Shown here: positions 3,101-21,252 of the stretch, one piece after another | How positions within the stretch are numbered: the first letter of the stretch is position 1 | Layout: each line of letters opens with the position of its first letter | Assembly (NCBI RefSeq): GCF_000430625.1 | Contig: NZ_AUMJ01000062.1 | Location: 1 to 33,704 of the forward strand | Direction: 5' to 3' | Length of the DNA stretch: 33,704 bases | Source of the DNA: Aneurinibacillus terranovensis DSM 18919 | GTDB lineage: Bacteria; Bacillota; Bacilli; Aneurinibacillales; Aneurinibacillaceae | Notes under the pieces: model-generated | The model's input: the letters and a program-made list of their open reading frames with translations, nothing else | What the model was told of the DNA's origin: nothing | Databases searched by the model: none | Translations under genes and position numbers: made by a program

Positions 3101-3120
3101 AACAAAATATCCATTTTGTT
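3101..3120 (+). repeat. Left recombination-site candidate of the inversion switch
   Basis: The sequence aacaaaatatccattttgtt consists of two 8-bp arms (AACAAAAT and ATTTTGTT) around a 4-nt asymmetric centre, ATCC. It is the exact reverse complement of 3924-3943. Inside the segment each site is followed by TTTATGAAAAT (3123-3133 here; mirrored at the right site with a 2-nt offset). Similarity outside the sites is lost. Palindromic arms with an asymmetric centre are the usual design of tyrosine-recombinase core sites. Confidence 0.7.
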
Positions 3121-3166
3121 AGTTTATGAAAATCGGACGATTAATAGTATACCTAATTATAAACCA

Positions 3167-3195
3167 ATAGTACTAAAAAGACACAGTTATTTCAA
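3167..3195 (-). promoter_or_regulatory. Outward sigma-A promoter inside the invertible segment
   Basis: On the minus strand TTGAAA (3190-3195) and TACTAT (3167-3172) are 17 nt apart, one mismatch each from the sigma-A consensus. An A/T-rich stretch lies upstream. The promoter sits past the recombinase stop codon and points left, out through the 3101-3120 site, where no gene is found. In the flipped state it would read into the chemosensory region. Confidence 0.55.
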
Positions 3196-3218
3196 CATAA
3201 TTAGACAAAAAAATTACT

Positions 3219-3782
3219 TTAAAGAGAAAATGACTCCAAGGCTTTATTTACCATATCATCATTAATTCCTATATATCTTAAGGTAACAGATGGGCTGGAA
3301 TGCCCAAAAATATATTGCAGCATCGCTACGTCCTTAAAACGTTGATAAAAATGATATCCGAATGTTTTACGTAATGTATGAGTTCCTATAGACCCTTCAA
3401 CACTACACGCTTTTGCGGCATCATTGATAATTTGCCAAGCCTGCACACGATGTATCGGTTTTCCTCCTTTTCTGGATGGGAATAAATAATCTGAATCAGC
3501 AAAGTTTTTTGTGTATTTTTCGATTTCTTTCCTTAGCGCGTCCGTAATGATGATTTTCCTGGCATTTCCCGTCTTTTTCTCTCTTACCTTCAAATGCTTT
3601 GTGTATTTCACATCCAAAACCCTTAAAGGAAGGATGTCACTTATTCTCAGACCGGAATTAATCCCGAAAACAAAAAGAAAATAATCGCGATAAGATTGTG
3701 CCAGCAAATAATTTTTTATCTCTTGAATTTTGTCCAAATCACGTATGGGCTCAACTGCATTTGCTCCATGTCTTGCTGTCAT
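3219..3782 (-). CDS. Small tyrosine recombinase (catalytic domain only)
   Basis: A 187-residue site-specific recombinase made almost entirely of the catalytic domain. The active-site set is complete: R46 (GLRISD), K69 or K70 (beta-hairpin REKKTGN), H135 and R138 (THTLRKT), H161 (GHSS) and nucleophile Y170 (LRYIG). The N-terminal core-binding domain of classic integrases is nearly absent, as in small phage- or plasmid-encoded recombinases. The start ATG is preceded on its strand by GAGGTG at 3791-3796. Matched inverted 20-bp sites flank it closely, which points to an invertase role on its own locus. An integrase of a minimal mobile element is the alternative, but the sites are not direct repeats. 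Confidence 0.92.
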   Translation of the reverse strand: MTARHGANAVEPIRDLDKIQEIKNYLLAQSYRDYFLFVFGINSGLRISDILPLRVLDVKYTKHLKVREKKTGNARKIIITDALRKEIEKYTKNFADSDYLFPSRKGGKPIHRVQAWQIINDAAKACSVEGSIGTHTLRKTFGYHFYQRFKDVAMLQYIFGHSSPSVTLRYIGINDDMVNKALESFSL

Positions 3783-3923
3783 TATTTAGAACACCTCATT
3801 ATCTAGATTCAATACAATGTATAATTCAATATGTTAGATTAAATTTCCTTTTTTATATGGAGTAATACCTAAAAACCCTTATTATCAAGCCTTTTTTTAT
3901 GCTTTAAAATTTTCATAAAACAT
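3783..3923. other. A/T-rich region upstream of the recombinase
   Basis: It should contain the leftward recombinase promoter; TTGATA at about 3889-3894 on the minus strand is one -35 candidate, with only a weak -10. On the plus strand a TATAAT (3820-3825) has no recognisable -35. No clear rightward promoter was found to feed the gene at 3964. Confidence 0.35.
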
Positions 3924-3943
3924 AACAAAATGGATATTTTGTT
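3924..3943 (-). repeat. Right recombination-site candidate of the inversion switch
   Basis: The sequence aacaaaatggatattttgtt is the exact reverse complement of 3101-3120, with centre GGAT at 3932-3935. Here the palindrome extends to 13-bp arms (AACATAACAAAAT and its complement). It lies 20 bp upstream of the HD-GYP start codon, within what would be the 5' leader. The AT-rich palindrome could also act as an operator. Confidence 0.7.
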
Positions 3944-3951
3944 ATGTTCAA

Positions 3952-3958
3952 GGGGGGG
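3952..3958 (+). promoter_or_regulatory. Run of seven G forming the Shine-Dalgarno of the HD-GYP gene
   Basis: AGGGGGGG precedes the GTG start (3964) by 5 nt and is the only ribosome-binding candidate. Homopolymeric G runs can change length by slippage, which here would alter spacing or pairing with 16S rRNA. No length variation can be seen in one sequence. Confidence 0.45.
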
Positions 3959-3963
3959 TCAAA

Positions 3964-4577
3964 GTGGAGGAGATTCATGTCAAATTTTTAACCCGATTAC
4001 TATCGAAGGATTTGGAAACATACCATCATTCCTTGCGCGTGGGAAATATGGCTAAAACCTTTGCTGATCATCTCAACTTTAGTGACGAACAAAAACAAAA
4101 ATTAATAATCGGATGCTGTCTTCATGACTTCGGAAAAATTTTGATTCCGAACGAAGTGTTAAATAAGGAAGGATCGTTGACCTCGAAGGAATGGGAGGTA
4201 ATAAAACTTCATTCCATCTATGGGAATAAGGTTGTTGGTGGTGGAAGGAGACATCGACGAAGAGATTATCAATGTTGTGCAGTTTCATCATGAGCGGATA
4301 GATGGGTTGGGATATCCGTTTGGATTGAAGGGTGATGAAATCCTGTTTTTGCCAAGATTGCTCAATCATCGACTCTTACGACAGCATGCTATCGAATCGA
4401 GCGTACCGCAAGGGAACCACTCCTTTAAAGGCAAGGGCAGAACTTTTGAAATGGTGTAATACACCATTTGATGAATTTTATGTTCAGGAGTTCTTAAATC
4501 TATCGGAACACTTGCTTGAAACGAGAGACAAAATGGAATGTGGAGTTCCGGAAGCTTTAGCACCTATTGCTATATAA
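3964..4577 (+). pseudogene. HD-GYP c-di-GMP phosphodiesterase-like gene with two frameshifts
   Basis: Three consecutive frames give one HD-GYP domain of about 200 residues. Frame 1 has YHHSLRVGNMA and the HD pair in LHDFGK, up to HSIYGNKVV. Frame 2 (from about 4225) has HHERIDGLGYP, the diagnostic HHExxDGxGYP motif. Frame 0 (from about 4372) has IIDSYDSMLSNRAYRKGTTP to the stop at 4577. The first shift falls in a GGT repeat (GTTGTTGGTGGTGG, near 4230), the second near 4365-4372. A third frame just after, ending at 4642, reads GEGDDLNLIRKRLHNLKH and may be the original tail. HD-GYP proteins hydrolyse cyclic di-GMP; the metal ligands are all still encoded, so decay is recent or the shifts are sequencing errors. 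It stands directly downstream of the inversion switch and upstream of the chemosensory genes. Start GTG chosen by the G-run RBS. Confidence 0.8.
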
Positions 4578-4944: not shown

Positions 4945-5060
4945 TGTTTGCAAGCGATCCGAAGGCTTAACAAAAGAAACAATTTGAACCGAGTATCAAT
5001 GATTTGTCCAACAAAAGGGCTGGTACAACAGCAAATATAAAACCAGGAGGCTCTATATTT

Positions 5061-7001
5061 ATGGAAAAGAAACTTGCAAAACCGGCTGGCTCTCAAGTTC
5101 ATGGGGGCGCACAACTATCTGTTCAGGCTGATCAGATCGAAAAAAAGAGAGAGTTTGCAAGAAAGCAGGCTCTCGACAAGGTGAAGGCCAGAACATTGGC
5201 GAAACAGCAGCAGTTGGCTGAGAGGATCGCAACCGCGACCGAGCAGCTTGCCGCAGGGATCGAAGAAGCCAGCAGCGCGGCAGAAGAACTCAGCGCAAAC
5301 GCTGGACAAATTGCAAAAGGCGCAAATGAAGCTTCGTCGGCGGCAGAGGAATCAAGGGCTGCCATCAACCAGATCGAAAAGGCATCCGTTGTTGCGGACA
5401 AAAACGCTAAGGAATCGCTCCAGCTTGTGAATGGCGCAAAAGAACTCATAGAGAATACTTCCAACGACATAGAAATCCTGATCAAAGGCATACAGAATGC
5501 TGCAGATACTAACATAGAGTCGGTCAAACTGGTGGGAGAATTGGAAAAGCAGTCGGATGAAATCGGGAATATCGTACAGGCTGTAGTGAGAATAGCCGAT
5601 CAGACCAATCTATTGGCCTTAAATGCCGCGATCGAGGCTGCCAGGGCCGGCGAGCATGGTAGGGGATTTGCCGTGGTTGCCGACGAAGTCAGAAATCTTG
5701 CTGAAATATCGGAGAAATCTGCTAGAAATATCAGAGAATTGGTTGCTGAGATTCAAAACAATGTAAAAATCGTCGTCAGCGATATTGAAAACGCCGGTAA
5801 TGCCGCCAGTGAAGAGGTGGAAAAAGCAAAAAATACGACTGCAAATCTTGTGAAAATCAACGAGGAAATTGTTGTTGTACAGAAAGGAGTTGCCGAAATA
5901 TCCCAAAATGCTGTTGATGCGAACAAGGGGGCCTCTGAATTTCTCACCATTGTCGAACAAGTTGCAGCGGCAGCGGAACAGCAAAGCAGCGCCGCCGAGG
6001 AAGTGGAAAAATCCTTACAGATGCAAAATAAAGCTTTCGATGAGTTGAATGCGGCCGCGTCCGAATTGGCCCAGATGGCTGAAGATCTGAAGGTATCTAC
6101 AGATGCCCAAAAGTCATCCGAGGCCCTTGCCGCCGCAGCTCAGGAATTGGCCGCCAACGTGGAGGAGGCAAATTCCACATCCAGTGAAATTATGAAGGCG
6201 ATGGAGCAGATTGCCACGGGTGCAGAGATGCAAGCGGAACTCGCTGAAAAGTCTTTGCTGGTTGCAGAAAAACTGGTTGTGGCGTCAAAACAAATGAATG
6301 AAAGGGCATCGGTCTCCACAGAAAAAGTGGCGGAGTTGCAAAAAATAATTGAGAGCAATAAGATCTCGGTGGACGATATGATTACCGGAATTTCAGCTTC
6401 GGCTGATGCAAGTTTGGTTGCCGCCAGAAACATCAAAAATCTGGAAGAAACCATTCGTAAAATTGATAAGATTGTCGATACGATTGTCAATGTGACCATT
6501 CAGACCAATATGCTGGCGGTAAACGGGTCTATCGAAGCGGCCAGGGCAGGAGAGTTTGGAAGAGGATTTTCTGTAGTCGCCGGTGACATACGGACCCTTG
6601 CCAATGAATCAGCAGAGAATACGGATAAAATCAAGGACCTGGTAAGAGGAATCCAAAGTCAGATACAGAGAGTTGCGGCGGACATTGATGTTTCCAGCAG
6701 GACTGCGTTTGCCGAAGTGGAGAAGGTTAAGAAGGTGACTCATAACCTGAATGTGGTTATGGAAAGTATGATGGATATTAATGTGGCAACAAAAGAAGTG
6801 GAAAAAGGTTCGGAAGAATCGCTGGTTGCTTTGGAACAGGCAAGAAAAGGCGTGGAACAGATTGCAACCGCCGCCCAAGAGGCCAACAGGGCTACGCAGG
6901 AGGCATCAAATGCAGCAACCGAACAGGCAAAAGGAATGCAGGAACTGGCCGAAGCGATTGAGGAAATATCCGGACTTGCCGATGAACTTCAAAATCTATA
7001 A
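5061..7001 (+). CDS. Cytoplasmic methyl-accepting protein with two signalling tips
   Basis: 646 residues with no membrane segment, HAMP, PAS or other sensor domain; after a basic N-terminus (1-55) it is coiled coil throughout. It has two complete MCP signalling tips: residues 178-215 ([20 protein letters not shown] then [18 protein letters not shown]) and 478-515 ([20 protein letters not shown] then [17 protein letters not shown]). Matching residues, such as R195/R495, are exactly 300 apart. Tip 2 differs at usually fixed places (D to I, NAA to NGS, VAD to VAG). Pairs such as EE in [13 protein letters not shown] look like methylation sites for the CheR and CheB encoded downstream. ATG 5061 was chosen because AGGAGG (5045-5050) precedes it by 10 nt; an upstream in-frame start at 5004 has no RBS. 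It likely scaffolds CheA and the CheW proteins in a cytoplasmic array. The stimulus is unknown. Confidence 0.95.
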
Positions 7002-7019
7002 CGGGTGGGAGGAGATGTT

Positions 7020-8510
7020 GTGGTATCTTCCGAAAAAAATGCAAGTATTAACGAGCGCCAGTTGGTTACCTTCCATCTTGGAGATGATGAATTCGGGGCG
7101 GACATTATGAATGTGAAAGAAATCGTGAGAGTTCCGGAAATCACCAGGGTGCCGAATGCTTTGAATTACATCGAGGGAGCCTGCAATTTGAGAGGCAATG
7201 TCTTGCCCATCATCGATGGAAGAGCCAGATTCAATATGGTAAAGAAAGAAAAGGAGGAGAATAGCAGGGTATTGGTCATTGATGTAAACGGGAAAGCAAC
7301 CGGAGTCATTGTGGACAGAGTGTCCGAAGTCATTCGTGTGAGTACTTCAGACATTGAGGACCCACCGAAGATCGTAAAAAATATGGATGCAGACTATTTG
7401 AACGGGATCGTCAAGCTGGACAACGGGGACCGGTTGATCATGTTTCTGGACATTGTCAAAGTGGTTCATGGCGATGGAGGGGCAGAGCCTCAAACGAGCG
7501 AAAAAGACGCCATGGGCGAATCCTTTTTGAAGAGCAGTGACAATTCATCGCTGGATGCTGCAGGCGATGAGCAACTAGTATCGTTTTTGCTCGGTAAAGA
7601 AGAGTACGCGATCGGGATCATGCAGGTCAAAGAAATTATACGCGTGCCTGAAATTATGAAGGTTCCAAATTGCGAAGCCTATGTGGACGGTGTTGTATCC
7701 ATCAGGAAAAACCTTCTTCCTATCATTAATTTGAGAAGATATTTTGGTATGGAGTCCAAGGGGATCACCGACCATACAAGAATTCTGGTTGTAGATATGG
7801 GAGGCTTTACGGCTGGAATGATCGTGGACAAGGTATCCGAGGTTTTAAGGGTGCCTGCCGGCATGATTCAGTCCCCTCCAAGATTTTCTGCACAAAGAGG
7901 GGAGCAGCTTAAGGGAGTGGCCAAGCTGGACAACGGCAAACGTCTGATCATGATGCTTGAGCCATCAAAAATTATATCTGCCGATGCGTACAGGATGATC
8001 AGCGACCTAAAAGGTGCATCACAGGAGAACGACGACGAGATGAAAAGCATAGAAAGACAGATGATGGAAGAGGAACAGTTGGTTGCCTTCAAAATTGACA
8101 ATGAAGAATACGGGATAAAAATTAAGGAAGTGCAGGAAATCAATCGAATGACCGAAGTAACCAAAATACCCCGGGCTCCCCATTACATTGACGGTATCGT
8201 GAATTTGCGTGGGAACATCATTCCTGTGCTCGATTTAAGAAAGTTTTTCGGACTTTCTGAAAAAGGAATAACTGATGCTGCGAGGATCATCATTGTGGAC
8301 TCGGCCGGCGCAAAAACCGGAATCATTGTGGATTCGGTATCGGAAGTACTGAGATTTGAAAAGGCATTGATTGAGTCGCCGCCGGAACTATTGAGCAACG
8401 GTATTGACAGCAGTTATGTAGAGGGTGTAGGCAAACTCAATGAAGGGAAAAGGATGGTATTGATCCTTCGCCTAAATAAAGTACTGGATTTTGAGAAGAT
8501 TTCAGCGTAA
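7020..8510 (+). CDS. Triple-CheW scaffold protein (first copy)
   Basis: 496 residues holding three CheW domains in series, at about 14-150, 184-320 and 352-492. Each has the CheW pattern of an opening QLVxF strand, a VPxxxxYxxG turn, and a closing LDNGKRLIM-like strand. The receptor/CheA-contact motif is NLRG in domain 1, SIRK in domain 2 (Gly lost) and NLRG in domain 3. A normal CheW has one domain of about 150 residues coupling receptor to CheA; three in one chain could bridge several complexes. GTG at 7020 follows GGAGGA (7008-7013) by 6 nt; an in-frame GTG at 7005 overlaps the RBS and is less likely. It lies 18 nt after the receptor gene, so one operon. Confidence 0.93.
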   Translation: MVSSEKNASINERQLVTFHLGDDEFGADIMNVKEIVRVPEITRVPNALNYIEGACNLRGNVLPIIDGRARFNMVKKEKEENSRVLVIDVNGKATGVIVDRVSEVIRVSTSDIEDPPKIVKNMDADYLNGIVKLDNGDRLIMFLDIVKVVHGDGGAEPQTSEKDAMGESFLKSSDNSSLDAAGDEQLVSFLLGKEEYAIGIMQVKEIIRVPEIMKVPNCEAYVDGVVSIRKNLLPIINLRRYFGMESKGITDHTRILVVDMGGFTAGMIVDKVSEVLRVPAGMIQSPPRFSAQRGEQLKGVAKLDNGKRLIMMLEPSKIISADAYRMISDLKGASQENDDEMKSIERQMMEEEQLVAFKIDNEEYGIKIKEVQEINRMTEVTKIPRAPHYIDGIVNLRGNIIPVLDLRKFFGLSEKGITDAARIIIVDSAGAKTGIIVDSVSEVLRFEKALIESPPELLSNGIDSSYVEGVGKLNEGKRMVLILRLNKVLDFEKISA

Positions 8511-8591
8511 TGTTACTTGTTATGTCTCAGGCAAGTTGTTTTTTGTCTTGGGGTCATTCCTATGTTTCCAGTATTCCTGCAGGTGATTGTT

Positions 8592-9677
8592 ATGAAACAC
8601 AGGATAAAAGTTTTAATTGTAGATGATTCCGCTTTGATGAGAAAAGCATTGCGGGAAATTATCATAACGGATGAGGCACTTGATTTAGTGGGCGTGGCCA
8701 GGGACGGAAAGGATGCAATCGAAAAAGTCAAGGAATTAAAACCGGATGTTATCACCATGGACATCAATATGCCCGAAATGGACGGATTAACGTCCATGCG
8801 GTATATACTGGACGATCACCCCGAAATACCGGTTATCATCATCAGTTCATTGACGCAGGAGGGAGCATTTACCACCTTTGAGGCTTTGGCGCTGGGTGCC
8901 TTTGATTTTGTGGCCAAACCTTCCGGAACAGTGTCTTCGAACATACATGTTGTCGGAAGGGAGATTATCAAAAAGGTAAAACTCGCCTATAAATACGCCA
9001 GTCGAAGGAGTCTTAAGGCAAGGGTCAGAATCAAAAATTCCTTTTCCACAAAAAGGGCATCTGAAACTCTGGAAAAACCCGGCGCGGTTCGGACCAATGA
9101 ATTGTCCAAGGTCGTGGTGATTGGCGTATCCACGGGCGGGCCGGGAACATTGATGGAAGTTTTGCCCATGCTGCCATCTGATCTGAAGGCTGCACTGATC
9201 GTTGTGCAGCATATGCCGCCGACATTTACATCATCTTTTGCCAAAAGACTAGGGAAAGCTTGTCCTTTTCCGTTTAAAGAAGCGGAAGCCGGCGATGTGT
9301 TGGTCGACGGAAGAGGGTATCTGGCCCCCGGAGGATACCAGTTGCTTGTTCATAAGACTGGCCGAATGCTGCGGCTTTCGGCCAGCCCTGTGACGCAGTT
9401 TATGCCCAGTGTGAACGTGACCATGGAATCCGTGCTGAGGGCATATAGCGGAAAAAATGTAATAGGCGTCCTTATGACCGGTATGGGTGATGACGGAGCC
9501 GATTCCATGGTGAAAATTAAAGAGGCCGGAGGAGTAACCATTGCGGAAGATGAATCCACGGCGATTGTTTTTGGGATGCCAAGGGCGGCCATTGAAAGGG
9601 GAGGAGCTGAGATCGTCGTTCCTTCTTACCGGATAGCCGACGAAATCATCAAGGCTGTTTGTCGAATATGCGATTAA
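8592..9677 (+). CDS. cheB: CheB chemoreceptor methylesterase/deamidase
   Basis: 361 residues with the normal CheB layout. The N-terminal receiver has D11/D12 (VDDS), phospho-acceptor D57 (TMDINMP) and K109 (AKPSG). After a basic linker (about 137-172) comes the methylesterase domain with S180 (GVSTGG), H207 (VQHMPP) and D301 (GMGDDGA) as the triad. Phosphorylation by CheA activates CheB to remove methyl groups from receptors, here presumably the double-tip protein. ATG 8592 follows AGGTGA at 8581-8586; an upstream open extension to 8517 has hydrophobic residues foreign to CheB and no RBS. Complete and apparently functional. Confidence 0.95.
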   Translation: MKHRIKVLIVDDSALMRKALREIIITDEALDLVGVARDGKDAIEKVKELKPDVITMDINMPEMDGLTSMRYILDDHPEIPVIIISSLTQEGAFTTFEALALGAFDFVAKPSGTVSSNIHVVGREIIKKVKLAYKYASRRSLKARVRIKNSFSTKRASETLEKPGAVRTNELSKVVVIGVSTGGPGTLMEVLPMLPSDLKAALIVVQHMPPTFTSSFAKRLGKACPFPFKEAEAGDVLVDGRGYLAPGGYQLLVHKTGRMLRLSASPVTQFMPSVNVTMESVLRAYSGKNVIGVLMTGMGDDGADSMVKIKEAGGVTIAEDESTAIVFGMPRAAIERGGAEIVVPSYRIADEIIKAVCRICD

Positions 9678-9735: not shown

Positions 9736-11571
9736 ATGGATCTATTGTATGTTACATATATTGAGGAAACGGAAGAATTGCTTCAGAAAGCTGAAGAATG
9801 CCTGATCAGGTTGGAGGCTGAGTACTCAACTGACGATATTAACGGTTTATTCAGAATGTTCCATTCCATCAAGGGTTCTTCTCAAATGATCGGATATGAG
9901 GACATAGGCAACCTGACGCATAAGATGGAAGATATGCTTGATATTGTCCGAAAGGGTCGAATTGACCTTGACGGTAAAATCCTGCAATTGTGTTTTCGCG
10001 GGTTGGATCATGTCAAAAGATTGTTTGAGTCAAAAAAAAACATGAATGCCTTCGGCGACAACGCAGATTTCATTCAAACTTCCTTGGTATTGGAAAGAGA
10101 AATTGACCAAATTCTGAAAGCCAATTCTGAAACGGGAAGTGACAGGAAGGAAACGTCCCCGGGAGACGGAATAATCACTGCCTTAAAGGAAAGTAAGCAA
10201 ACAGGAAAAAATCGGTACTGCATCTATATTTCTTTCAGCGATGATATTCCAATGATTTCCCCCGTTCTGTTTATGATTTTTAACAATATCAAAGACATTG
10301 GTTCGCTCGTGTATACCAATGTATCTGACGGGGATATCTATGAAGCGTCTGTAGACCTCAATATTTCCGCTCCGTTCATGATCATGGATTCGGATTTAGA
10401 GGCAGCCGAACTGTATACGTATTTTGATCTGATGTATGTGAAAAAGATAGCCATTTCTGACATCTCAGAGCATCAAATGTTGAAGCAAGCTATACCGCAT
10501 GATCGGGACAGCCGCAGGTTTTTTGAAAATTTTTTTCAAGAGTACCCGAAACTGTATCCGGTCCTGTTTCATCATCCCAACTCCTTCGATAAAGCCGTTT
10601 ATACTGAATTTATCCATGAGTGGTATAAAAAAATTTTTGAAGTGGTAAGTCCTATTTTGTTTCATGCAACAGGACAAAGTCTGAAACAGGAAATAGAAAC
10701 ATTTTATGATTGGTGTCTACATGCGATTGGCGGAACATTGGCGCCGGATTTCCCCTGCAAAAAGTACCTTGAACTATTCGAGATGGTTTACGGTTATGTT
10801 CGGGGGCGATTTTTTTATAAAATTTTCAAAGCAAAAAATGACCATTTCATAGACGGTCTTGCCGAATTTATTGAACGAATGGACAAATCAAGCACACGCG
10901 AATTTTTACTTGACTTGAGCGGGCTCGAAATGATCCATGAACATGAATTGAAAAGCTTGATCGAGTTGAAAAGGCGTCTGAGTGACATGGGGATTGTCGT
11001 GAGTGTCATTATTGATAACCCTTCGCGAAGAAGACTTATCAATATATTTGATTCGATTCGAACGATTGAAAAGTTCGAGTGGTTCGAAACGGAAGTGGAC
11101 GCAGCGCTGGGGGAAAACATTACTTCAATGGTAAATTTATTGGAGGATGATGAAATGAGCGGATACCGCATCATGATTTTGGATGATGAAACGGAGATAT
11201 TGGATCTACTTAAAAAAAATTTCCAATCGGCTGGTTATACACAAATCGAGACATACATTGACCCTGCAACTGCTCTGGAAATGTTTAAAAAGAGGAAGTA
11301 TCACATCGTTCTTGCGGATATTAACATGCAGGAGATCGACGGTATAGAATTTCTAAATAAGGTTAAGGATTATGATCCCATGACGCAAGTGATTATCATG
11401 ACAGGCTGTTCGACCATGGACAGGATATTGACTTGCCTGGAGCTTGGCGCGAATGATTATATTTTAAAACCTTTCAAAAGCTACGATTATGTATTGGAAG
11501 TCGTGGATGATTCGATAAAAAAATTGGAAAGATGGAGAGAAGCGATTAAAGGGATGATTGCAACCTCCTGA
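9736..11571 (+). CDS. HPt - middle region - STAS - receiver protein, no kinase domain
   Basis: 611 residues. An HPt domain (about 1-110) has phospho-accepting H43 in MFHSIKGSSQMIG. A middle region (about 158-245) opens with an alpha/beta segment (YCIYISFSDDIPMI) that recalls CheA P2. A helical part (260-385) is unrecognised. A STAS-like domain (about 387-455) starts FLLDLSGLEMIHEHELKSLI; the usual DSSG with its phosphorylatable Ser is IHEHE. A receiver (about 477-600) has D483/D484, acceptor D528 (LADINM), T556 and K578 (LKPF). There is no dimerisation or ATPase domain, so it cannot autophosphorylate. It likely passes phosphate between CheA and a receiver, or is itself the output. It is the only receiver in the cluster besides CheB. 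No described protein with this order is known to me. Confidence 0.88.
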   Translation: MDLLYVTYIEETEELLQKAEECLIRLEAEYSTDDINGLFRMFHSIKGSSQMIGYEDIGNLTHKMEDMLDIVRKGRIDLDGKILQLCFRGLDHVKRLFESKKNMNAFGDNADFIQTSLVLEREIDQILKANSETGSDRKETSPGDGIITALKESKQTGKNRYCIYISFSDDIPMISPVLFMIFNNIKDIGSLVYTNVSDGDIYEASVDLNISAPFMIMDSDLEAAELYTYFDLMYVKKIAISDISEHQMLKQAIPHDRDSRRFFENFFQEYPKLYPVLFHHPNSFDKAVYTEFIHEWYKKIFEVVSPILFHATGQSLKQEIETFYDWCLHAIGGTLAPDFPCKKYLELFEMVYGYVRGRFFYKIFKAKNDHFIDGLAEFIERMDKSSTREFLLDLSGLEMIHEHELKSLIELKRRLSDMGIVVSVIIDNPSRRRLINIFDSIRTIEKFEWFETEVDAALGENITSMVNLLEDDEMSGYRIMILDDETEILDLLKKNFQSAGYTQIETYIDPATALEMFKKRKYHIVLADINMQEIDGIEFLNKVKDYDPMTQVIIMTGCSTMDRILTCLELGANDYILKPFKSYDYVLEVVDDSIKKLERWREAIKGMIATS

Positions 11572-11587
11572 AGAAATCGGTGGTGAA

Positions 11588-12418
11588 ATGGTATTGTCCG
11601 ATGAGTTGTACGATAAATTCGTGAAAATGGTTTATAAAAAAACGGGCATCTTTTATGAACACAATAAAAAGTATTACGTCCAGAAAAGGATAGAAAAACG
11701 GGCGGAAATGATCGGAATGGGCAGTATTAACGATTATTACCGCATGTTGAAGTTTTCCAAAGATTCAACCGAATTTGATAGGTTGATCAATGATCTTACA
11801 ATAAATGAAACTTATTTTTTCCGGGACTATCCGCAGCTCAGGAATTTCGCTGAAAACGTGCTTCCCATTGTTGTAAGAGAAAAGAAAAAGAACAACGACA
11901 GAAATATCAAAATCTGGAGCGCCGCATGTTCCACAGGAGAGGAACCGTATACCTTATCCATCATTCTTCAGGAAATGCTTGATGAACCTGAAAAATGGAA
12001 TTTGCAAATTGTTGCCTCGGATATCAATACGGATGTGATTCACTCTGCAAAGATCGGTTTGTATGAATACAGGTCTGTCAGGGATGTGCCCCCTGAATAT
12101 TTGGAAAAGTACTTTACTAAAAAGCATGAATCGTATCAGGTGAACCCTAACGTTAAAAAGCTGGTCAAATTTATGAAAATCAATCTGGTGGATTTGGTCG
12201 CCGTAAGTGATATTACTGGCTGTGACTTTATATTTTGCAGAAACGTCCTCATCTACTTTGATGACGAATCAAGAAAGGCGGTTTTATCCGATTTTTACAG
12301 AGGCTTAAATCCCGGGGGCATCATTTTTTTGGGTCATTCCGAATCTGTCGGAAGGATCTCCTCGGCATATCACATGCAGAGGATTGGAGACACCATCGTC
12401 TATTTCAAACCGAAATGA
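11588..12418 (+). CDS. cheR: CheR chemoreceptor methyltransferase
   Basis: 276 residues. The N-terminal all-helical domain ends in LTINETYFFRD, the conserved CheR stretch. The SAM-binding site shows WSAACSTGEEPYTL, then ASDINTDVI, and the C-terminal core has FIFCRNVLIYFD and LGHSESV. CheR transfers methyl groups from S-adenosylmethionine to receptor glutamates, opposing CheB. ATG 11588 was chosen because GGTGGTG precedes it; an in-frame TTG at 11558 would overlap the upstream gene without an RBS. The gene lies 16 nt after the upstream stop. The double-tip receptor has no obvious CheR-tethering pentapeptide at its C-terminus. Confidence 0.95.
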   Translation: MVLSDELYDKFVKMVYKKTGIFYEHNKKYYVQKRIEKRAEMIGMGSINDYYRMLKFSKDSTEFDRLINDLTINETYFFRDYPQLRNFAENVLPIVVREKKKNNDRNIKIWSAACSTGEEPYTLSIILQEMLDEPEKWNLQIVASDINTDVIHSAKIGLYEYRSVRDVPPEYLEKYFTKKHESYQVNPNVKKLVKFMKINLVDLVAVSDITGCDFIFCRNVLIYFDDESRKAVLSDFYRGLNPGGIIFLGHSESVGRISSAYHMQRIGDTIVYFKPK

Positions 12419-12535
12419 TCAAACAAACGGGTTGCGTCTGCGTCAAGGATTTGCCATTCCGTTTTTGCTAGTGAAACCGTTGTGGGCATTGATGATGTGT
12501 GAGGCATTTTGGGGCGAATTGGGAGAGTGTGTAAT

Positions 12536-14776
12536 ATGAGCAGCTATACTATTGGTCTCGAGGATATTGAACTATTGAGGATGCTTCTGGATGAGTGGAA
12601 GGCAAGTCAGGAAGGTCTTGAAAAAAGGATTCTCCAGCTCGAGGTTTGCCCTGATGACCTTGAATTGGCAAATGACATATGTAATAGAATTCATAGTATC
12701 AAAAGAGGTTCCTCCTTTGCAGGGGTGGTTTTTTTAACAAAGCTCTGTCATGAAATTGAAACTGTACTGGATGCAATTCGAAAGAAAAACATTGAGGTTG
12801 ATGCCGATCTTATTGACCATGTTCTGACCAGCGTTGATTTATTAAGCAATCATATTTCCCGGTTAATCCAGAAAGTCCATGAGTATGATTCGTCAAATGA
12901 AGGTGCAGAACTGGTTATAGACTTTAATGAAGAAAAAAGAATAGATGAAATTGTTAGGAAAATAAATACACTCTTTGAAAAACACAAGCAGAAAAAAACA
13001 CAATTAATGAAGCGATTGGACGAGGATGAAGCCACAAAAATAGAGATATTGCAGTCCCAGGAGTTTGCAAGAAAATTATCCAAGGATGTAAAGGAACAGT
13101 TCCTGTTTGAGACCTATGAGCATATTGATAGAATCGAAAATCAGTGTTTGATCAAACTGGATAAAGAAGAAAACAATCGTAACGCCATCAACGAACTGTT
13201 CAGGGCTGTTCACAGCATCAAAGGCGGAACGGGCCTGTTTATCGCAACGGAGCCGAAAGAAAGTCCCGATTTTGCGGTCGTCAAGGATTTTTCCAATGTT
13301 GTGCATAGTTTTGAAAACCTGCTTGAACTTATTCGGGATCGGGAAATCCACTTTGATGAGAACATATCGTCCTTATGTTACGAGACCGTTGACTACCTGA
13401 AAGCTTCATTGGAATCGGTGGCGCTGGAAAACGGTGGGTCAATACCTAATGCAGAAATTTTGGGTAAAATTAGTCATTGCATATCATACATCAAGTCCTT
13501 GCCTGATCGGAAAATTGGTTTAGATTCGCAGCCCGAATCCGGAAAACAAGATCAGAGTCAGAATCAAATGCAGAAAGCCGCTTTGACGCAAAGTATGCAG
13601 AGTATAAGAGTAAGCCAGGACAAGCTTGACAAGATGATGAATATGATTTCCGAATTGCTGATAGCGAAAAATGCCTTTATGCATATTGCCTCCAAATTAA
13701 ATGCAGAGTATGAACTTCCGGAGATTTCAAAGGAAGTTAAAGGGGTAGGGTTTTCAATCAGTAGGATATCGGATGAATTACAAAATGCCATCATGTCCAT
13801 GAGAATGGTCGAAGTAAAGACGGTGTTTCAAAAAATGCCCCGAATCATTCGCGATATTTCACAAAGTACCGGCAAGAAGATGGAATTGATGATGGAAGGT
13901 GAAAGTACGGAGATTGACAAAACGATTGTCGAGCAGATCAGTGACCCGATTGTTCATTTGATTCGAAACGCGGCTGACCATGGTATTGAGAATCCGGAAG
14001 GCAGAAGGAGGAAGGGGAAAAGCGAAACAGGAAAGATTGTGTTGAGGGCATACCATAAAAACAAACATGTGTATATTGAGATTGAAGATGACGGAAAGGG
14101 AATGGATGTACAGGTTCTCAAAAAGAAAGCCATTGATAAAGGCTTTATCACCATGGAAGATGCGGAAAAAATGACGAAAGGCCAGTTGACCAATCTGATC
14201 TTTTTGCCTGGATTCAGTACGGCGAGTCAAATTACTGAAGTCTCAGGCCGCGGGGTCGGAATGGATATTGTGAAGAGCAATATCGAGAAAATCAATGGCA
14301 ACATTATGATCGAGAGCGAAGTTGATAAGGGTACAAAGATGGTCATACAGCTTCCGCTTACGCTTGCCGTTTCAAGGGGGCTGACGGTCAACGTTTCAAA
14401 CGAGACTTATATTATTCCGATCGATTACATTTCCGAGACCGTAAAGATCAATACGAGCGATATTCATAAATACAATGAAAAGTATTTTGTACATCTTAGA
14501 GGGAATGTTATTGGAATTGAATGGCTGAGCAAGCTGTTATTGCTGGGCGAAAGAAACATGAATCATGAAGAATTAAATACAGTCATCATTTCCAATGGAT
14601 CGGAAAAATTCGGCATTATCGTGGATAAGCTAAAAAATGAACAGGAATTTGTCATGAAAACGTTGGATGGGCACCTGGCGGGTATACTCGGTATTTCCGG
14701 CTCCACCTTGCTGGGCAACGGACAGGTTGTATTAATAGTGAATCCTGTAGATATTATACAAATGGCGAAAAAATAG
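12536..14776 (+). CDS. cheA: CheA histidine kinase with two HPt domains
   Basis: 746 residues. HPt 1 (about 1-115) has H53 in IHSIKRGSS, where Arg replaces the usual Gly after HSIK. HPt 2 (about 185-325) has H226 in AVHSIKGGTG. The dimerisation domain (about 355-425), ATPase domain (about 430-605; N-box HLIRNAADHGIE, DDGKGMD, GRGVGMD) and CheW-like P5 domain (about 610-746) follow. No P2 domain is visible between HPt 2 and P3, and there is no fused receiver. It should autophosphorylate and pass phosphate to CheB and to the HPt-STAS-receiver protein. ATG 12536 follows GGGAG (12521-12525). A 117-nt gap before it holds no gene. Confidence 0.95.
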   Translation: MSSYTIGLEDIELLRMLLDEWKASQEGLEKRILQLEVCPDDLELANDICNRIHSIKRGSSFAGVVFLTKLCHEIETVLDAIRKKNIEVDADLIDHVLTSVDLLSNHISRLIQKVHEYDSSNEGAELVIDFNEEKRIDEIVRKINTLFEKHKQKKTQLMKRLDEDEATKIEILQSQEFARKLSKDVKEQFLFETYEHIDRIENQCLIKLDKEENNRNAINELFRAVHSIKGGTGLFIATEPKESPDFAVVKDFSNVVHSFENLLELIRDREIHFDENISSLCYETVDYLKASLESVALENGGSIPNAEILGKISHCISYIKSLPDRKIGLDSQPESGKQDQSQNQMQKAALTQSMQSIRVSQDKLDKMMNMISELLIAKNAFMHIASKLNAEYELPEISKEVKGVGFSISRISDELQNAIMSMRMVEVKTVFQKMPRIIRDISQSTGKKMELMMEGESTEIDKTIVEQISDPIVHLIRNAADHGIENPEGRRRKGKSETGKIVLRAYHKNKHVYIEIEDDGKGMDVQVLKKKAIDKGFITMEDAEKMTKGQLTNLIFLPGFSTASQITEVSGRGVGMDIVKSNIEKINGNIMIESEVDKGTKMVIQLPLTLAVSRGLTVNVSNETYIIPIDYISETVKINTSDIHKYNEKYFVHLRGNVIGIEWLSKLLLLGERNMNHEELNTVIISNGSEKFGIIVDKLKNEQEFVMKTLDGHLAGILGISGSTLLGNGQVVLIVNPVDIIQMAKK

Positions 14777-14860
14777 AGTAATGGCGATAGGTAATGTTAG
14801 AAGCGCGTTGGCCCAGAAGAAAAATAAAGCGGATTTGCAATCTTTTTGCGGGAGGGCAAT

Positions 14861-15634
14861 ATGAATGAAAAAATGGTAAAGTATGCCGTTTTTAATAACA
14901 AGGGAGGAGTAGGTAAGAGCACGATTGCTGTACATATTGCTCACGGTCTTGCTCTTGACGGATATAAGGTATTATTGGTTGATATGGACGGGCAGAACGA
15001 TGCAAGTCTTTTTCTTGGTTTTACTTTGCAAGATTATAAAAAAACATTTTACAATCTCATTGACGAAAGAAGAAATACCAAGCTTGAGGAATGCCTTATC
15101 CATGCCAGGGATAATCTGGATTTATTGCCTTCCGGTTCAATTGACCTGATGAATACGGAGTTGTTCAGGGTGTCGAGAATTGACCTGGTCTTGGAAGAAA
15201 AACTGAACGATCTTAAATCTTTTGGCTACGATTTCGTGATTATTGACTGCGGGCCTCAGCGAAGCAAGGTGAATGATGCAGTCTTGTGTTATGTCGATGG
15301 AATCATCATACCCGTCCAGCTGCAAGCTGCATCCGTTAGAGCTGTAGGGAACATTTACGAATATCTTTCGGATATGAGGCTGAATTCCGGTATGATAAAG
15401 CTGATTGTACCCAACATGTTTGATCAGAGAACCAACGACTCGAAAGAAAACTTAAAGTTAATGAAGGAATTTATTGCGGACGATCATCTACTGACCGAAC
15501 CCATACATCGCAGGGTAAAGATTGCAGAGGCCGGAAAACTGGGAAAAACTGTTTTTGAATATGATGATGAATCTGCTCGGCAGTTTCTGAGCATCGTTAA
15601 AAAGGTGATAAGCAGATATGCCCAGGAAGAGTGA
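14861..15634 (+). CDS. ParA/MinD-type ATPase of the chemosensory cluster
   Basis: 257 residues with the deviant Walker A of ParA proteins, NNKGGVGKST (K14 and K19), the switch I region VDMDGQNDAS (D41) and Walker B-like VIIDCGP (D129). The conserved start closely resembles Soj/ParA. Known relatives inside chemotaxis loci (ParC of Vibrio, PpfA of Rhodobacter) position or segregate receptor arrays; PpfA acts on a cytoplasmic array using the nucleoid. That is the best inference here, because the only receptor is cytoplasmic and no ParB or centromere-like repeat is seen. ATG 14861 follows GGAGGG (14851-14856). Its last 17 nt overlap the next gene, implying translational coupling. Confidence 0.92.
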   Translation: MNEKMVKYAVFNNKGGVGKSTIAVHIAHGLALDGYKVLLVDMDGQNDASLFLGFTLQDYKKTFYNLIDERRNTKLEECLIHARDNLDLLPSGSIDLMNTELFRVSRIDLVLEEKLNDLKSFGYDFVIIDCGPQRSKVNDAVLCYVDGIIIPVQLQAASVRAVGNIYEYLSDMRLNSGMIKLIVPNMFDQRTNDSKENLKLMKEFIADDHLLTEPIHRRVKIAEAGKLGKTVFEYDDESARQFLSIVKKVISRYAQEE

Positions 15635-17459
15635 TCGTAAAAAAGACCAAACGAATTTGGAAAAGATGAAAAATGAAATGATACGAAAGAAGGAGAAGGC
15701 GGAAAAAGCATCGGTTGCCGGGCAGCATGACGAGTCAACGGTTATTCTCCAAGGAGAAGTTAGAGAGGGAACACAGTCATCCCGTCTGAAAGAAGCTCTT
15801 TTAGTGCGGCAGGTGCATGCAAGTGAAAACGAGTGGTCGGGTGAAGCAGTCCGAGATGACGCGTTTGATGTTCAAAGTTGCATCCGAGAAGAGGATGGAC
15901 AAAGCAACGATATAAACAAGCCAAACATCGGAGTGATGACGTTAACTGAGGGAGATTTTCGCAACCCGGAAAATGATGAAGTCTTACATAACGATGAGAT
16001 TGATAATCTTGATCTTGTTGTTTTCTGGGTGGGAGCCGAACAGTTTGCGTTTAGGCTGGTGAATGTAAAAGAAATCATAAAGGTTGATAAAATAAAGAGG
16101 GTTCCCCATGCCCCTGCAAATGTCGCAGGGTTGTGCAGCCTAAGGGGCAGCATCCTGCCAGTTGTCGACATTCGCAGGTGTTTACATATGCCGGAGAAGG
16201 AATACAATGATGACAGCAGGATCATCGTTGCCGACATTCATGGCAGGAATGTAGGGATTATAACCGATGGGATTTCAGAAGTGATCAGCATAAAAGCCTC
16301 ATCCATTTTGGAGCCGCCAGCTAATATAAAGCATAATCAAAGCAGGAATATTATCGGTATTGTATTGGGAGACAATGGAAGAAGTATCATTATGGTCTTA
16401 GATGTGGAGAACGTTGTGAAATTTGAGCAGATGGAAAAGGATTTTTTAAGCGACAAGACATCGGATCGTGATGGGTCTTTTTCTCCAGCATCACATCATG
16501 GGGATGAAGCAGAGTTGGTCATTTTCTACATCAACGATGAGCAATATGCCCTTGATGTTAGGAATGTTAAAGAAATCCTGCGATATGTTGAGCTTTTGAA
16601 AGTTCCCAATTCTCCATATTATGTGGAAGGTGTTGTGTCTGTAAGGAACAATCTTCTTGCGGTAATCAATCTGGCAAAACTTTTTGGCGCAGAACATCAC
16701 GGCGTTTATGAAACTACCAGAATTATTGTTGCGGATGCCGGCGATTTCTCCTATGGAGTTATTGTCGATAAAGTGTCGGAAGTGGCACGTGTTCCAAGAA
16801 AACTTTTTTACAAACCTTTCGACATAGTCAAAAATGCTGAAAAGCAGTTTATACGTGAATTTGCCAATTTAAGCAATGGGAAACAGGTTGTTATGATCCT
16901 TGATCCGCGCAAATTAGCATCCCTGAACAATTTACGCGCGATTAACTTCGATCATCTGACATGCGGCGCAAGCGGAAACGTTATGATTAACGAAGAAATG
17001 CCGGAGAATCAATTTTTAGATCAGGAGCAGATTGTAGCTTTTAAAGTTGATAATGAAGAATATGGTATAAGAATCAATTATGTTTGTGAAGTTAATAGAA
17101 TGGATGAAATTTACAGTTTCCCAGGAGCTCCTGATTTCATTGATGGAATGGTAAACCTAAGGGGAGATATCATACCTGTTTTAAATTTGAGAGCATTTTT
17201 TGGAAAATCCTTAACAAACAAGAGTGCCCTTTCCATGCTTTTGGTTGTTGAATACAAAAAACAACGGATAGGTTTAATGATTGATTCTGTTACAGAAGTC
17301 GTCAGGGTGAATAAGGATCTTCTTGAAGAGACTACCCGGGCGTTAGAAGCCGAAAACAAAAAGAAATTTATCCATCATATTGGAAAATTGAACGAAGGGA
17401 AAAGGCCCATTCTGATTATTGATCTGACGGCTGTCCTTGATTTTGTCATCGGACAATAG
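15618..17459 (+). CDS. Triple-CheW protein with charged N-terminal extension (second copy)
   Basis: 613 residues. Residues 1-130 are a charged, probably disordered extension (first 30 strongly basic: PRKSDRKKDQ and RKKEKAEK). Three CheW domains follow at about 131-270, 298-436 and 469-612. The contact motifs are SLRG, SVRN and NLRG, so the middle domain again lacks the Gly as in the first triple-CheW protein. Domain 3 of both proteins shares DNEEYGI and EXNRM, and both end in LNEGKR and VLDF, so the triple unit was duplicated as a whole. The ATG lies inside the end of parA with AAGGTG as RBS. By analogy with ParP, a CheW-like partner of ParC, the extension may link the array to the ATPase. 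That is inference from position and charge only. Confidence 0.92.
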   Translation: MPRKSDRKKDQTNLEKMKNEMIRKKEKAEKASVAGQHDESTVILQGEVREGTQSSRLKEALLVRQVHASENEWSGEAVRDDAFDVQSCIREEDGQSNDINKPNIGVMTLTEGDFRNPENDEVLHNDEIDNLDLVVFWVGAEQFAFRLVNVKEIIKVDKIKRVPHAPANVAGLCSLRGSILPVVDIRRCLHMPEKEYNDDSRIIVADIHGRNVGIITDGISEVISIKASSILEPPANIKHNQSRNIIGIVLGDNGRSIIMVLDVENVVKFEQMEKDFLSDKTSDRDGSFSPASHHGDEAELVIFYINDEQYALDVRNVKEILRYVELLKVPNSPYYVEGVVSVRNNLLAVINLAKLFGAEHHGVYETTRIIVADAGDFSYGVIVDKVSEVARVPRKLFYKPFDIVKNAEKQFIREFANLSNGKQVVMILDPRKLASLNNLRAINFDHLTCGASGNVMINEEMPENQFLDQEQIVAFKVDNEEYGIRINYVCEVNRMDEIYSFPGAPDFIDGMVNLRGDIIPVLNLRAFFGKSLTNKSALSMLLVVEYKKQRIGLMIDSVTEVVRVNKDLLEETTRALEAENKKKFIHHIGKLNEGKRPILIIDLTAVLDFVIGQ

Positions 17460-18480: not shown

Positions 18481-18505
18481 AAAGCGCTGATTAAGTGCTT
18501 TTTTT
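18481..18505 (+). terminator. Rho-independent terminator
   Basis: AAAGCGC (18481-18487) pairs with GTGCTTT (18495-18501, one G-T pair), running into a T-tract of seven. It follows the IS1182 remnant, and the 260-bp repeat begins 3 nt later. Confidence 0.6.
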
Positions 18506-18507
18506 AA

Positions 18508-18767
18508 CGTTAAAGAAAGTATATGTTGCTTTACAGTGTTAAAGCAACATATACTTTCCTCCATGGGTCACCTGAGAAAAACTCGCGGGAGTGTGCCGAA
18601 CGTTGCTTTTTCGATGTGGAGCGTGTGGCCGGAAGGTCGATCAGACCGACAATTGTCTCCATCCTTGAGGTACCCGGATGTTTTGTCGGTCCGACCTTCC
18701 GGTCACTAAGCGGCCGTTTCGCTTCCCTGCAGAAAAAGGACGAGCGGCAACGCCCGCGAGTTTTTCT
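18508..18767 (+). repeat. 260-bp structured repeat, copy A
   Basis: It matches 20774-21033 over 260 nt without gaps, with about 13 substitutions (about 95 percent identity). It contains a perfect 19-bp hairpin (18515-18533 with 18540-18558, loop CAGTGT). A closing stem pairs AGAAAAACTCGCGGG (18575-18589) with CCCGCGAGTTTTTCT (18753-18767). Inside is a CCGGAAGGTCG...GACCGACAA arm pairing with TTGTCGGTCCGACCTTCCGG. Between copies the closing stem shows a paired change (G-C to A-T), as expected if the fold is kept. It may be a non-autonomous mobile element (MITE-like) or a structured RNA. No coding capacity. Confidence 0.85.
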
Positions 18768-18821
18768 TATTTTGGTGTATACGATAAATAATGTTCTCCA
18801 CCAAGAGAAATAAAGACCCCT

Positions 18822-19069: not shown

Positions 19070-20617
19070 ATGAAGAAAAAGTTATTGAACGTAGTAACCA
19101 CAGCTGCCATTTGTTCCGTATTTGGATTTTCCTCTATGGCTGATGCTGCAGCACCGGCGGCGAAAAACCCATCAATTGACACCACAACACCTATAAAACA
19201 TGTTGTTGTTATTTTTGGGGAAAACGTTTCTTTCGACCACTACTTCGGTACATATCCACGCGCCGCTAATCCAAAAGGCGAGCCGGTATTTACAGCTAAA
19301 CCTCACACTCCTGCTGTTAACGGATTAACAAAGGAATTGTTGAGCAAGAACCCAAATGCATTTAACCCTAAACGCCTGGATCGTTCGCAGGCTGTAACCG
19401 ATGACATGGACCACGAGTATACGGCTGAGCAAAAAGCGTTTAATGGCGGGAAAATGGACAAATTCGTTGAAAATACTTCGGGCGGTAAGGATAAATCCAT
19501 GGTTATGAATTACTATGATGGAAATACCGTTACTGGTCTCTGGAATTATGCGCAAAACTATGCAATGAGCGATAACTCCTTTAACACAACGTTCGGACCT
19601 TCCACACCAGGTGCCCTAAACCTTATCTCCGGACAAACCCACGGAGCTACAGGTTATCTAAAAGGAGAAAAGAAAGGCGATATCAAAGATAATGTGGTGA
19701 ATGGTACCGTAATCGGTGACCCGGATCCGTTTTACGACAAAGCTTCAAATGCTACCCGCGCCCAGGTTGCTATGGACGGAAAAAACGTTGGTGACCTGTT
19801 AAACGCAAAGAACATTACCTGGGGCTGGTTCCAGGGCGGATTCCGTGATACATCTGCTAAACACAACAATATCGCCGGAGGCTCATCAATCGACTACAAT
19901 CCGCACCACGAGCCGTTCCAGTATTATAAATCAACATCCAATCCGAACCATCTGCCGCCTACTTCAACGGCTATGATTGGACATACTGATCAGGCTAACC
20001 ATCAGTATGATATGCAGGATTTCTGGAGTGCAGCTGATTCCCATAACCTGCCGGCAGTGAGCTATCTAAAAGCTCCGAATTACCAGGATGGCCATGCAGG
20101 GTATTCGGATCCGCTCGATGAACAGCACTTTATTGTTGACACGATTAACCACCTGCAGAAGCTCCCTGAGTGGAAAGATACCGCTGTTATCTTGGCTTAT
20201 GATGACTCTGACGGCTGGTATGACCATGTGATGCATACCCCGCTGGTTAACGGTTCAAATGACCCGGAAACCGATGCATTATATGGTCAGGGCAATGCCG
20301 GTGAACCGAAACTTGGCAGCTATTTAAACCGTGCCGGTTACGGCCCGCGCCTTCCGCTGCTGGTTGTATCTCCGTATGCAAAAACCAATTTTGTAGACCA
20401 TACGCTAACCGACCAGTCCTCTATTCTTCGCTTCATCGAAGATAACTGGAACCTGGGACGTATCGGTGACCACTCTTTTGATGCGGTTGCGGGCAGTATC
20501 GAGAATATGTTTGACTTTAAACACCCGTCTGCTAAAAAGCTGTTCCTTGATCCGATAACAGGGCAGCCTGTTCAGCCAAGCAAAAAACTAGTTCAAGACA
20601 AGAAGAACGAAAACTAG
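19070..20617 (+). CDS. Secreted phospholipase C / acid phosphatase (AcpA-PlcC family)
   Basis: 515 residues. A Sec signal peptide (basic MKKK, hydrophobic core, likely cleavage after ADA at residue 26) exports it. Family motifs are E51 in ENVSFDHYFG, the FGPSTPGALN segment (about 176-184) near the catalytic residue, HHEPFQYY, LDEQHF and DDSDGWYDHV. These belong to the alkaline-phosphatase-like superfamily group of phosphatidylcholine-hydrolysing enzymes and AcpA acid phosphatases. It probably releases phosphate from phospholipids or other esters outside the cell. RBS GAGGAG lies 7-12 nt before the ATG. It stands alone between two 260-bp repeats with its own promoter and terminator. A frameshifted 3' tail follows. 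The substrate is not decided by sequence. Confidence 0.92.
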   Translation: MKKKLLNVVTTAAICSVFGFSSMADAAAPAAKNPSIDTTTPIKHVVVIFGENVSFDHYFGTYPRAANPKGEPVFTAKPHTPAVNGLTKELLSKNPNAFNPKRLDRSQAVTDDMDHEYTAEQKAFNGGKMDKFVENTSGGKDKSMVMNYYDGNTVTGLWNYAQNYAMSDNSFNTTFGPSTPGALNLISGQTHGATGYLKGEKKGDIKDNVVNGTVIGDPDPFYDKASNATRAQVAMDGKNVGDLLNAKNITWGWFQGGFRDTSAKHNNIAGGSSIDYNPHHEPFQYYKSTSNPNHLPPTSTAMIGHTDQANHQYDMQDFWSAADSHNLPAVSYLKAPNYQDGHAGYSDPLDEQHFIVDTINHLQKLPEWKDTAVILAYDDSDGWYDHVMHTPLVNGSNDPETDALYGQGNAGEPKLGSYLNRAGYGPRLPLLVVSPYAKTNFVDHTLTDQSSILRFIEDNWNLGRIGDHSFDAVAGSIENMFDFKHPSAKKLFLDPITGQPVQPSKKLVQDKKNEN

Positions 20618-20734: not shown

Positions 20735-20771
20735 AAGAACGGCTACCCAATTGGGAGGGCCGTTCTTTTTT
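20735..20771 (+). terminator. Terminator of the phospholipase gene
   Basis: AAGAACGGC (20735-20743) pairs with GCCGTTCTT (20759-20767), with further pairing of ACCC and GGG inside, followed by a T-tract. Strong rho-independent terminator. Repeat B starts 3 nt after it. Confidence 0.85.
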
Positions 20772-20773
20772 AT

Positions 20774-21033
20774 CGTTAAGGAAAGTATATGTTGCTTTAC
20801 AGTGTTAAAGCAACATATGCTTTCTTCCATTGGTCACCTGAGAAAAACTCACGGGGGTGTGCCGAACGTTTCTTTTTCGATGTGGAGCGTGTGGCCGGAA
20901 GGTCGATCAGACCGACAATTGTCTCCATCCTTGAGATACCCGAATGTTTTGTCGGTCCGACCTTCCGGTCACTAAGCGGCCGTTTCGCTACCCAGCAGAA
21001 AAAGGCCGAGCGGCAACGCCCGTGAGTTTTTCT
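20774..21033 (+). repeat. 260-bp structured repeat, copy B
   Basis: Same orientation and length as copy A (18508-18767). The closing stem pairs AGAAAAACTCACGGG with CCCGTGAGTTTTTCT (21019-21033); both partners of one base pair differ from copy A. In the 5' hairpin one A-to-G change makes a tolerated G-U pair. It begins just after the T-tract of the phospholipase terminator. Similarity stops sharply at both ends, and no target-site duplication is evident. Confidence 0.85.
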
Positions 21034-21252
21034 CATGAACTCTTTAATCTTATCAACCTCTTTTACATTCTTTGAATACTTATTGATTGGAGCAGCTAGT
21101 GATTTGTTTTCAAACAGTCTTTTAAACGAAGAAGGAGTAAACAGAAAATGAAACGGCTGTATCATTCCTTGTGGAGCAAAGAAAATTTGGGATAAGAAAC
21201 CCGATGCAGGGCCTACAAAAGCTAAGGAAGTGTATATAGGAACTTTCGGCAA
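21034..21252 (-). pseudogene. Minus-strand coding scrap cut by repeat B
   Basis: About 73 codons read VPIYTSLAFVGPASGFLSQI, then FFAPQGMIQPFHFLF and NKYSKNVKEVDKIKEF, before running into the repeat. It is protein-like with hydrophobic stretches but has only a TTG start and no RBS. Coding-like sequence in another frame lies just upstream (EKYMPDTFA), so it is probably frameshifted as well. Family unknown. Confidence 0.3.

Follow-up and report, generated by a model that had tools for sequence, protein, structure and literature searches.

A predicted invertible DNA segment of about 820 bp that contains its own recombinase gene probably acts as a phase-variation switch in front of a chemosensory cluster of Aneurinibacillus terranovensis DSM 18919: the recombinase would invert the segment and so aim an outward promoter at the cluster or away from it. 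Comparison with related loci supports its membership in a family of invertons in Bacilli that have locus-specific site centres and targets in cis and, probably, in trans. The window, by which we mean the whole stretch of DNA analyzed, comprises 33,704 nt (positions 1 to 33,704 of contig NZ_AUMJ01000062.1, forward strand, assembly GCF_000430625.1). Its features are listed in Table 1.

Table 1. Coordinates of the candidate switch, the neighboring gene cluster, and two homologous segments (window positions unless a locus is named)
Feature	Position	Strand	Remarks
Left recombination site, AACAAAAT-ATCC-ATTTTGTT(A)	3101..3121	.	At recombinase 3' end
Right recombination site, (T)AACAAAAT-GGAT-ATTTTGTT	3923..3943	.	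Exact inverted copy of left site
Segment predicted to invert	3113..3931	.	From site anatomy; between site centres 3109-3112 and 3932-3935
Putative -10 box TATAAT of outward promoter	3156..3161 (3161-3156)	-	35 bp inside left site; conserved in relatives
TTGAAA-17-TACTAT match of first-pass annotation	3167..3195 (3195-3167)	-	9/12 match; same direction as outward promoter
Tyrosine recombinase, 187 aa, catalytic domain only	3219..3782	-	Intact ORF; dN well below dS against relatives
AT-rich stretch with half-site-like words (AACATATTG...)	3796..3835	-	Upstream of recombinase start; also in paired-site and single-site relatives
HD-GYP phosphodiesterase remnant	3964..4577	+	Split into three frames
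Conserved small ORF of cluster, 75 aa	4717..4941	+	No Pfam match
MCP, two signalling stretches	5004..7001	+	Without sensor, HAMP, or other Pfam domain
Triple CheW	7005..8510	+	Domain assignment
CheB	8517..9677	+	Domain assignment
Hpt/response-regulator protein	9736..11571	+	Domain assignment
CheR	11558..12418	+	Domain assignment
CheA	12509..14776	+	Domain assignment
ParA-like ATPase	14846..15634	+	Domain assignment
Second triple CheW	15618..17459	+	Domain assignment
Opposite-orientation recombinase-less segments, two Aneurinibacillus genomes	L075 6546-6909 and L110 5831-6189		Upstream of Cache MCP

Sites, recombinase, and gene cluster in the window

A first-pass annotation of this DNA had described two inverted 20-bp sites (3101-3120 and 3924-3943) with palindromic arms and an asymmetric 4-nt centre, ATCC on the left and GGAT on the right. 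Both are as described, and the perfect inverted repeat even extends to 21 nt; the right site lies within an outer palindrome (3919-3948). Inverted pairs of at least 16 nt spaced 100-1500 bp apart were absent from 20 dinucleotide shuffles of the window, and the 4.25-Mb genome holds only four perfect matches to the site, namely, the window pair and one other inverted pair. The locus has one of the features of an inverton, two inverted sites with a matching asymmetric core.

The same annotation had placed a small tyrosine recombinase with a complete active site between the sites, and our analysis bears this out. The intact reading frame matches the Pfam family Phage_integrase (PF00589; 3.3e-25, residues 18-174), which makes its product a member of the tyrosine recombinases, and the protein aligns to XerC/XerA-type structures across the catalytic region. 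Its translation and an alignment to 4a8e place the catalytic residues R (INSGLR), K, HxxR (HTLRK), H (GHSS), and Y (LRYIG). XerA/XerD are the nearest NCBIfam models, followed more weakly by FimE/FimB, all of them under cut-off; FimB/FimE (PRK09870/PRK09871) score 41 and 51.8 bits against curated cut-offs of 221 and 222, and the recombinase is not filed there. Judged from a dN of 0.04-0.05 against a dS of 0.5-1.7 in comparisons with relatives, the gene is under purifying selection. A phage origin was rejected, since no relative was found among viral contigs.

The AT-rich stretch upstream of the recombinase start may serve autoregulatory binding. The half-site-like words there would also suit a protein that merely resembles a recombinase and regulates transcription without recombination, the sites being operators only. 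We give this explanation hardly any credence: operators would not need the locus-specific matching centres described below, the catalytic residues are kept, and inverted interiors exist. If the segment is a switch, the recombinase that it encodes would bind both palindromic sites, and strand exchange at their asymmetric centres would leave the DNA between them inverted.

The annotation had also named an HD-GYP gene starting 20 bp past the right site as the target. The start position stands, but the gene is a multiply frameshifted remnant spread over three frames, so that the MCP/CheW/CheA/ParA cluster is the first target that is both long and intact; an intact 247-aa HD-GYP form exists in Gordonibacillus (L115). 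With an MCP that has no sensor or HAMP domains, the gene content is consistent with a cytoplasmic array. The cluster appears to be rare: among 399 sampled Bacilli, a close match to the Hpt/receiver protein was present in the window's own genome only. None of these 399 genomes has a chemosensory cluster of this kind without the switch, the cluster itself occurring only in the window's own genome. Farther downstream, a 271-nt direct repeat (94%; 18500-18770 and 20766-21036) flanks a phosphoesterase gene (19070-20617), and three consecutive tyrosine recombinase ORFs occupy the minus strand at 30930-33613, an arrangement that we take to be like a Tn554-type transposition module.

Related loci across the Bacilli

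We compared the window locus with 13 relatives that have close recombinases, giving 14 loci from several Bacilli families. The relatives of the recombinase (about 74-91% identical) come from Cohnella, Paenibacillus, Gordonibacillus, Aneurinibacillus, and other Bacilli, and the loci share a common anatomy: a site, about 110-160 nt, the recombinase, 50-150 nt, and the inverted site, with the sites spaced 777-839 bp apart. According to the first-pass annotation, loss of the sites where the recombinase is kept would speak against a switch; inverted sites are present in all 13 relatives. The site arms are nearly invariant over the 14 loci, while the 4-nt centre takes eight forms. Paired centres agree as an inverted pair at every locus (14/14) and as a direct pair at none (0/14). 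When partners were shuffled 100,000 times, the mean number of matching loci was 2.4 and the maximum 10, against the 14 observed. Strand exchange at the centre would impose just such agreement within a locus. Two or more such loci occur in four genomes (G000, G002, G003, and G047), and there each locus has a distinct centre, an arrangement that would keep the loci apart, and this may be its purpose. The Cohnella laeviribosi, P. naphthalenovorans, P. oceani, and Gordonibacillus genomes yielded no such pair besides the one at the recombinase locus.

All 14 recombinase loci lie next to c-di-GMP or chemotaxis genes. A chemosensory cluster, with or without HD-GYP, lies beside five of them (the window, L010, L011, L015, and L018). 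The neighbors are HD-GYP/MCP/CheW at L012; GGDEF and/or EAL at L013, L039, L040, and L041; PilZ at L051; CheW/MCP/EAL at L052; EAL opposite a histidine kinase at L053; and EAL and MCPs at L055. We rejected a cyclase on the recombinase-3' side of L053, as that gene encodes a 5TM histidine kinase. Recombinase-less sites also occur upstream of EAL+MCP (G003 contig 162), CheW+MCP (G003 contig 117; one remnant site), and MCP genes (G002 and G004). Since the loci were found via the recombinase or the site rather than via their targets, the association with targets is not built into the search. Transposon ends were rejected as an account of the sites: the segment and the same target cluster are kept together across genera at the five chemosensory loci, and transposition leaves the matching centres unexplained. 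In A. danicus, a recombinase-less site pair, 243 bp apart, precedes EAL+MCP (L076 6121-6383), and a single remnant site precedes CheW+MCP, again without a recombinase (L077 6279).

The outward promoter proposed by the first-pass annotation keeps its direction but not its core. The TTGAAA-17-TACTAT match is at chance level, with 8 matches of this grade against 9.0 expected, and was dropped in favor of a conserved TATAAT. In 12 of the 14 loci, this box points out and is located 28-38 bp inward of the site that adjoins the recombinase 3' end; about 14% of shuffled regions have a TATAAT in their last 60 nt. The box is missing from two loci, one of them L041, which is flipped (see below). In the window, TACTAT lies a few bases upstream of the TATAAT at 3161-3156, which is probably the true -10 box. 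As sequenced, the putative promoter points left into non-coding DNA, away from the chemosensory genes, and firing in that direction would correspond to the OFF state for the cluster, as the annotation had read it. Its further claim, that flipping would aim the promoter at these genes, is supported: with the promoter near the recombinase 3' end, transcription from the inverted form would run rightward through the HD-GYP remnant and on to the MCP-CheW-CheB-CheR-CheA-ParA cluster, the ON state.

A TGTCGA-19-TATAAT motif, which to us resembles a Spo0A box, occurs in Aneurinibacillus recombinase segments and, more generally, in the recombinase 3' region of L013, L039, L051, L052, and others. It is nearly identical to the TGTAGA-19-TATAAT of the recombinase-less segments in G002 and G003, of which the G004 counterpart has one base changed. 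Inspection by eye showed clear hairpins near the recombinase-5' site at L010, L015, L039, and L040 and also in several single-site relatives. In the window, no terminator hairpin was detected at this position, so a terminator as a general insulator is not claimed there.

Inversion between homologous segments

Inversion is visible by comparison at switches homologous to the window locus. In G002 (contig 171), a small ORF and a Cache MCP gene are preceded by a recombinase-less pair of sites, 344 bp apart, that has a homologue in G004. The flanks of the two run in the same direction (88% and 87%), while the interior, which has its breakpoints at the sites, is opposite (81% over 374 bp). The promoter accordingly faces the MCP gene in G002 and away from it in G004, where one site is damaged. 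As neither segment has a recombinase gene, we presume that the recombinase encoded at the same genome's EAL locus acts on it in trans.

Orientation also differs among the Aneurinibacillus segments that do contain the recombinase. At L013, L039, and L041, the segment lies between GGDEF and EAL genes that are both transcribed away from it; next to L040, a search for a GGDEF gene was negative. Three species (L013, L039, and L040) have the recombinase 3' end toward EAL, and a fourth (L041), which has lost the TATAAT promoter region, has it toward GGDEF. The placement at L013, L039, and L041 possibly makes the segment a two-way c-di-GMP toggle.

The search for a flipped form in related genomes, which the first-pass annotation had suggested, was thus positive at these homologous switches and negative at the chemosensory locus. 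There, the segment has the same orientation, away from the cluster (OFF), in 5/5 genomes, and the window locus was never seen flipped. Each of the four other chemosensory genomes likewise has the cluster genes after the switch, and DNA similarity among these loci stops near the recombinase-3' site. A uniform orientation is what a relic would give, that is, a once-inverting segment now fixed OFF at the window locus, the cluster being silent or under another promoter. Frameshifts in the recombinase as read in P. cisolokensis and Gordonibacillus, a damaged site in P. cisolokensis, and the broken HD-GYP gene in the window point the same way. We nevertheless consider a relic unlikely, because the window has perfect sites and an intact recombinase, with dN far below dS, and because a one-sided equilibrium would give the same picture in single genomes. 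From the intact recombinase, the perfect sites, and the homologous switches, we infer that the window segment still inverts; its predicted promoter would then control the cluster.

The second perfect inverted pair in the window's own genome (contig 26, 31453-31472 and 32188-32207; L074 7454-8208) has the centre AGTC and encloses a run of exactly 715 N that reaches from the arm of one site to that of the other; a stretch of 416 kb showed six other N-runs. A segment present in mixed orientation would leave a gap of this shape in a short-read assembly, which is a hint of inversion, although masking by the operators may also account for it. The same reading frame runs on from the site into both outer flanks, where it encodes a hydrophobic stretch with a basic end before a stop, so that inversion here may swap protein C-termini.

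Origin of the recombinase family and known switches

In a sister clade from small plasmids and Bacillaceae contigs, the recombinase start is preceded at about 150-360 nt by a single palindromic site, which usually adjoins a terminator-like hairpin; a second, inverted site was not found. Among the nearest known counterparts of the window system are the small-plasmid "site-specific integrases" of Bacillus badius pPM8 and Pseudalkalibacillus plasmids: the recombinase is about 71% identical and the arm words are similar, with the site about 185-360 nt upstream of the gene, but no second inverted site was found. Such relatives, some on small plasmids and often with a hairpin beside their single site, would fit a plasmid-type multimer resolvase or a mobile cassette whose second site is incidental. 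This seems very improbable for the window locus. Resolution is not expected of inverted sites, an interior is found inverted between species, and a branch with 88/80 support (86% of bootstrap trees) sets the paired-site recombinases apart, a clustering reached by 0 of 500 label shuffles. The simplest reading is that a plasmid-type recombinase was co-opted as an inverter.

We give about even chances to a broader model, in which a Bacilli-wide recombinase family derived from single-site plasmid-type ancestors would run invertible c-di-GMP and chemotaxis promoters in cis and in trans, a centre of its own at each locus would prevent cross-recombination, and the flip in Aneurinibacillus would swap expression of a diguanylate cyclase and a phosphodiesterase. 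If true, the switch would make second-messenger and chemosensory signalling in spore-forming Bacilli heterogeneous in a heritable and reversible way, and with the cyclase/phosphodiesterase version, opposite c-di-GMP states would exclude each other within a single cell. The locus-specific centres would offer a testable rule for how one recombinase family can serve several invertible loci per genome without rearranging the chromosome.

Invertible switches near such genes have precedents. Invertible sites in Clostridia are reported to lie most often close to genes of signalling and chemotaxis, one of which encodes an HD-type phosphodiesterase (Sekulovic 2018, PMC5903667); a phase-variable chemosensory array, which the first-pass annotation had thought new, is therefore not wholly new as an idea. 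Like the present family, which is from Bacilli, the Clostridia sites show signatures of inversion next to genes for MCPs, chemotaxis, and HD-type phosphodiesterases; they were found from reads, and the part of that report considered here does not work out the recombinase family, sites, or promoter (PMC5903667). In C. difficile, invertible promoters upstream of the c-di-GMP phosphodiesterase genes pdcB and pdcC are established, and there too a promoter segment bounded by inverted repeats is placed to control c-di-GMP turnover (PMC9286219). The pdcB segment measures 174 bp and has 19-bp imperfect repeats and an unidentified recombinase (PMC9286219), whereas most segments of the Bacilli family contain their recombinase, each site is a palindrome around a locus-specific centre, and one form has a GGDEF gene on one side and an EAL gene on the other. 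The differences from known switches lie in the recombinase family in Bacilli, such sites, the probable trans targets, and the cyclase/phosphodiesterase placement. Our literature searches found no such switch described for Paenibacillus or Aneurinibacillus, nor one in spore-forming Bacilli.

The fim-type switches with their FimB/FimE-like invertases also combine a small single-domain tyrosine recombinase, inverted repeats, and an invertible promoter. Unlike these, the window recombinase has an NCBIfam match under cut-off (52 of 222 bits), the targets in Bacilli are signalling genes, and the recombinase lies inside the segment. A large fimbrial segment that contains its recombinase is known from Providencia (PMC5903667).
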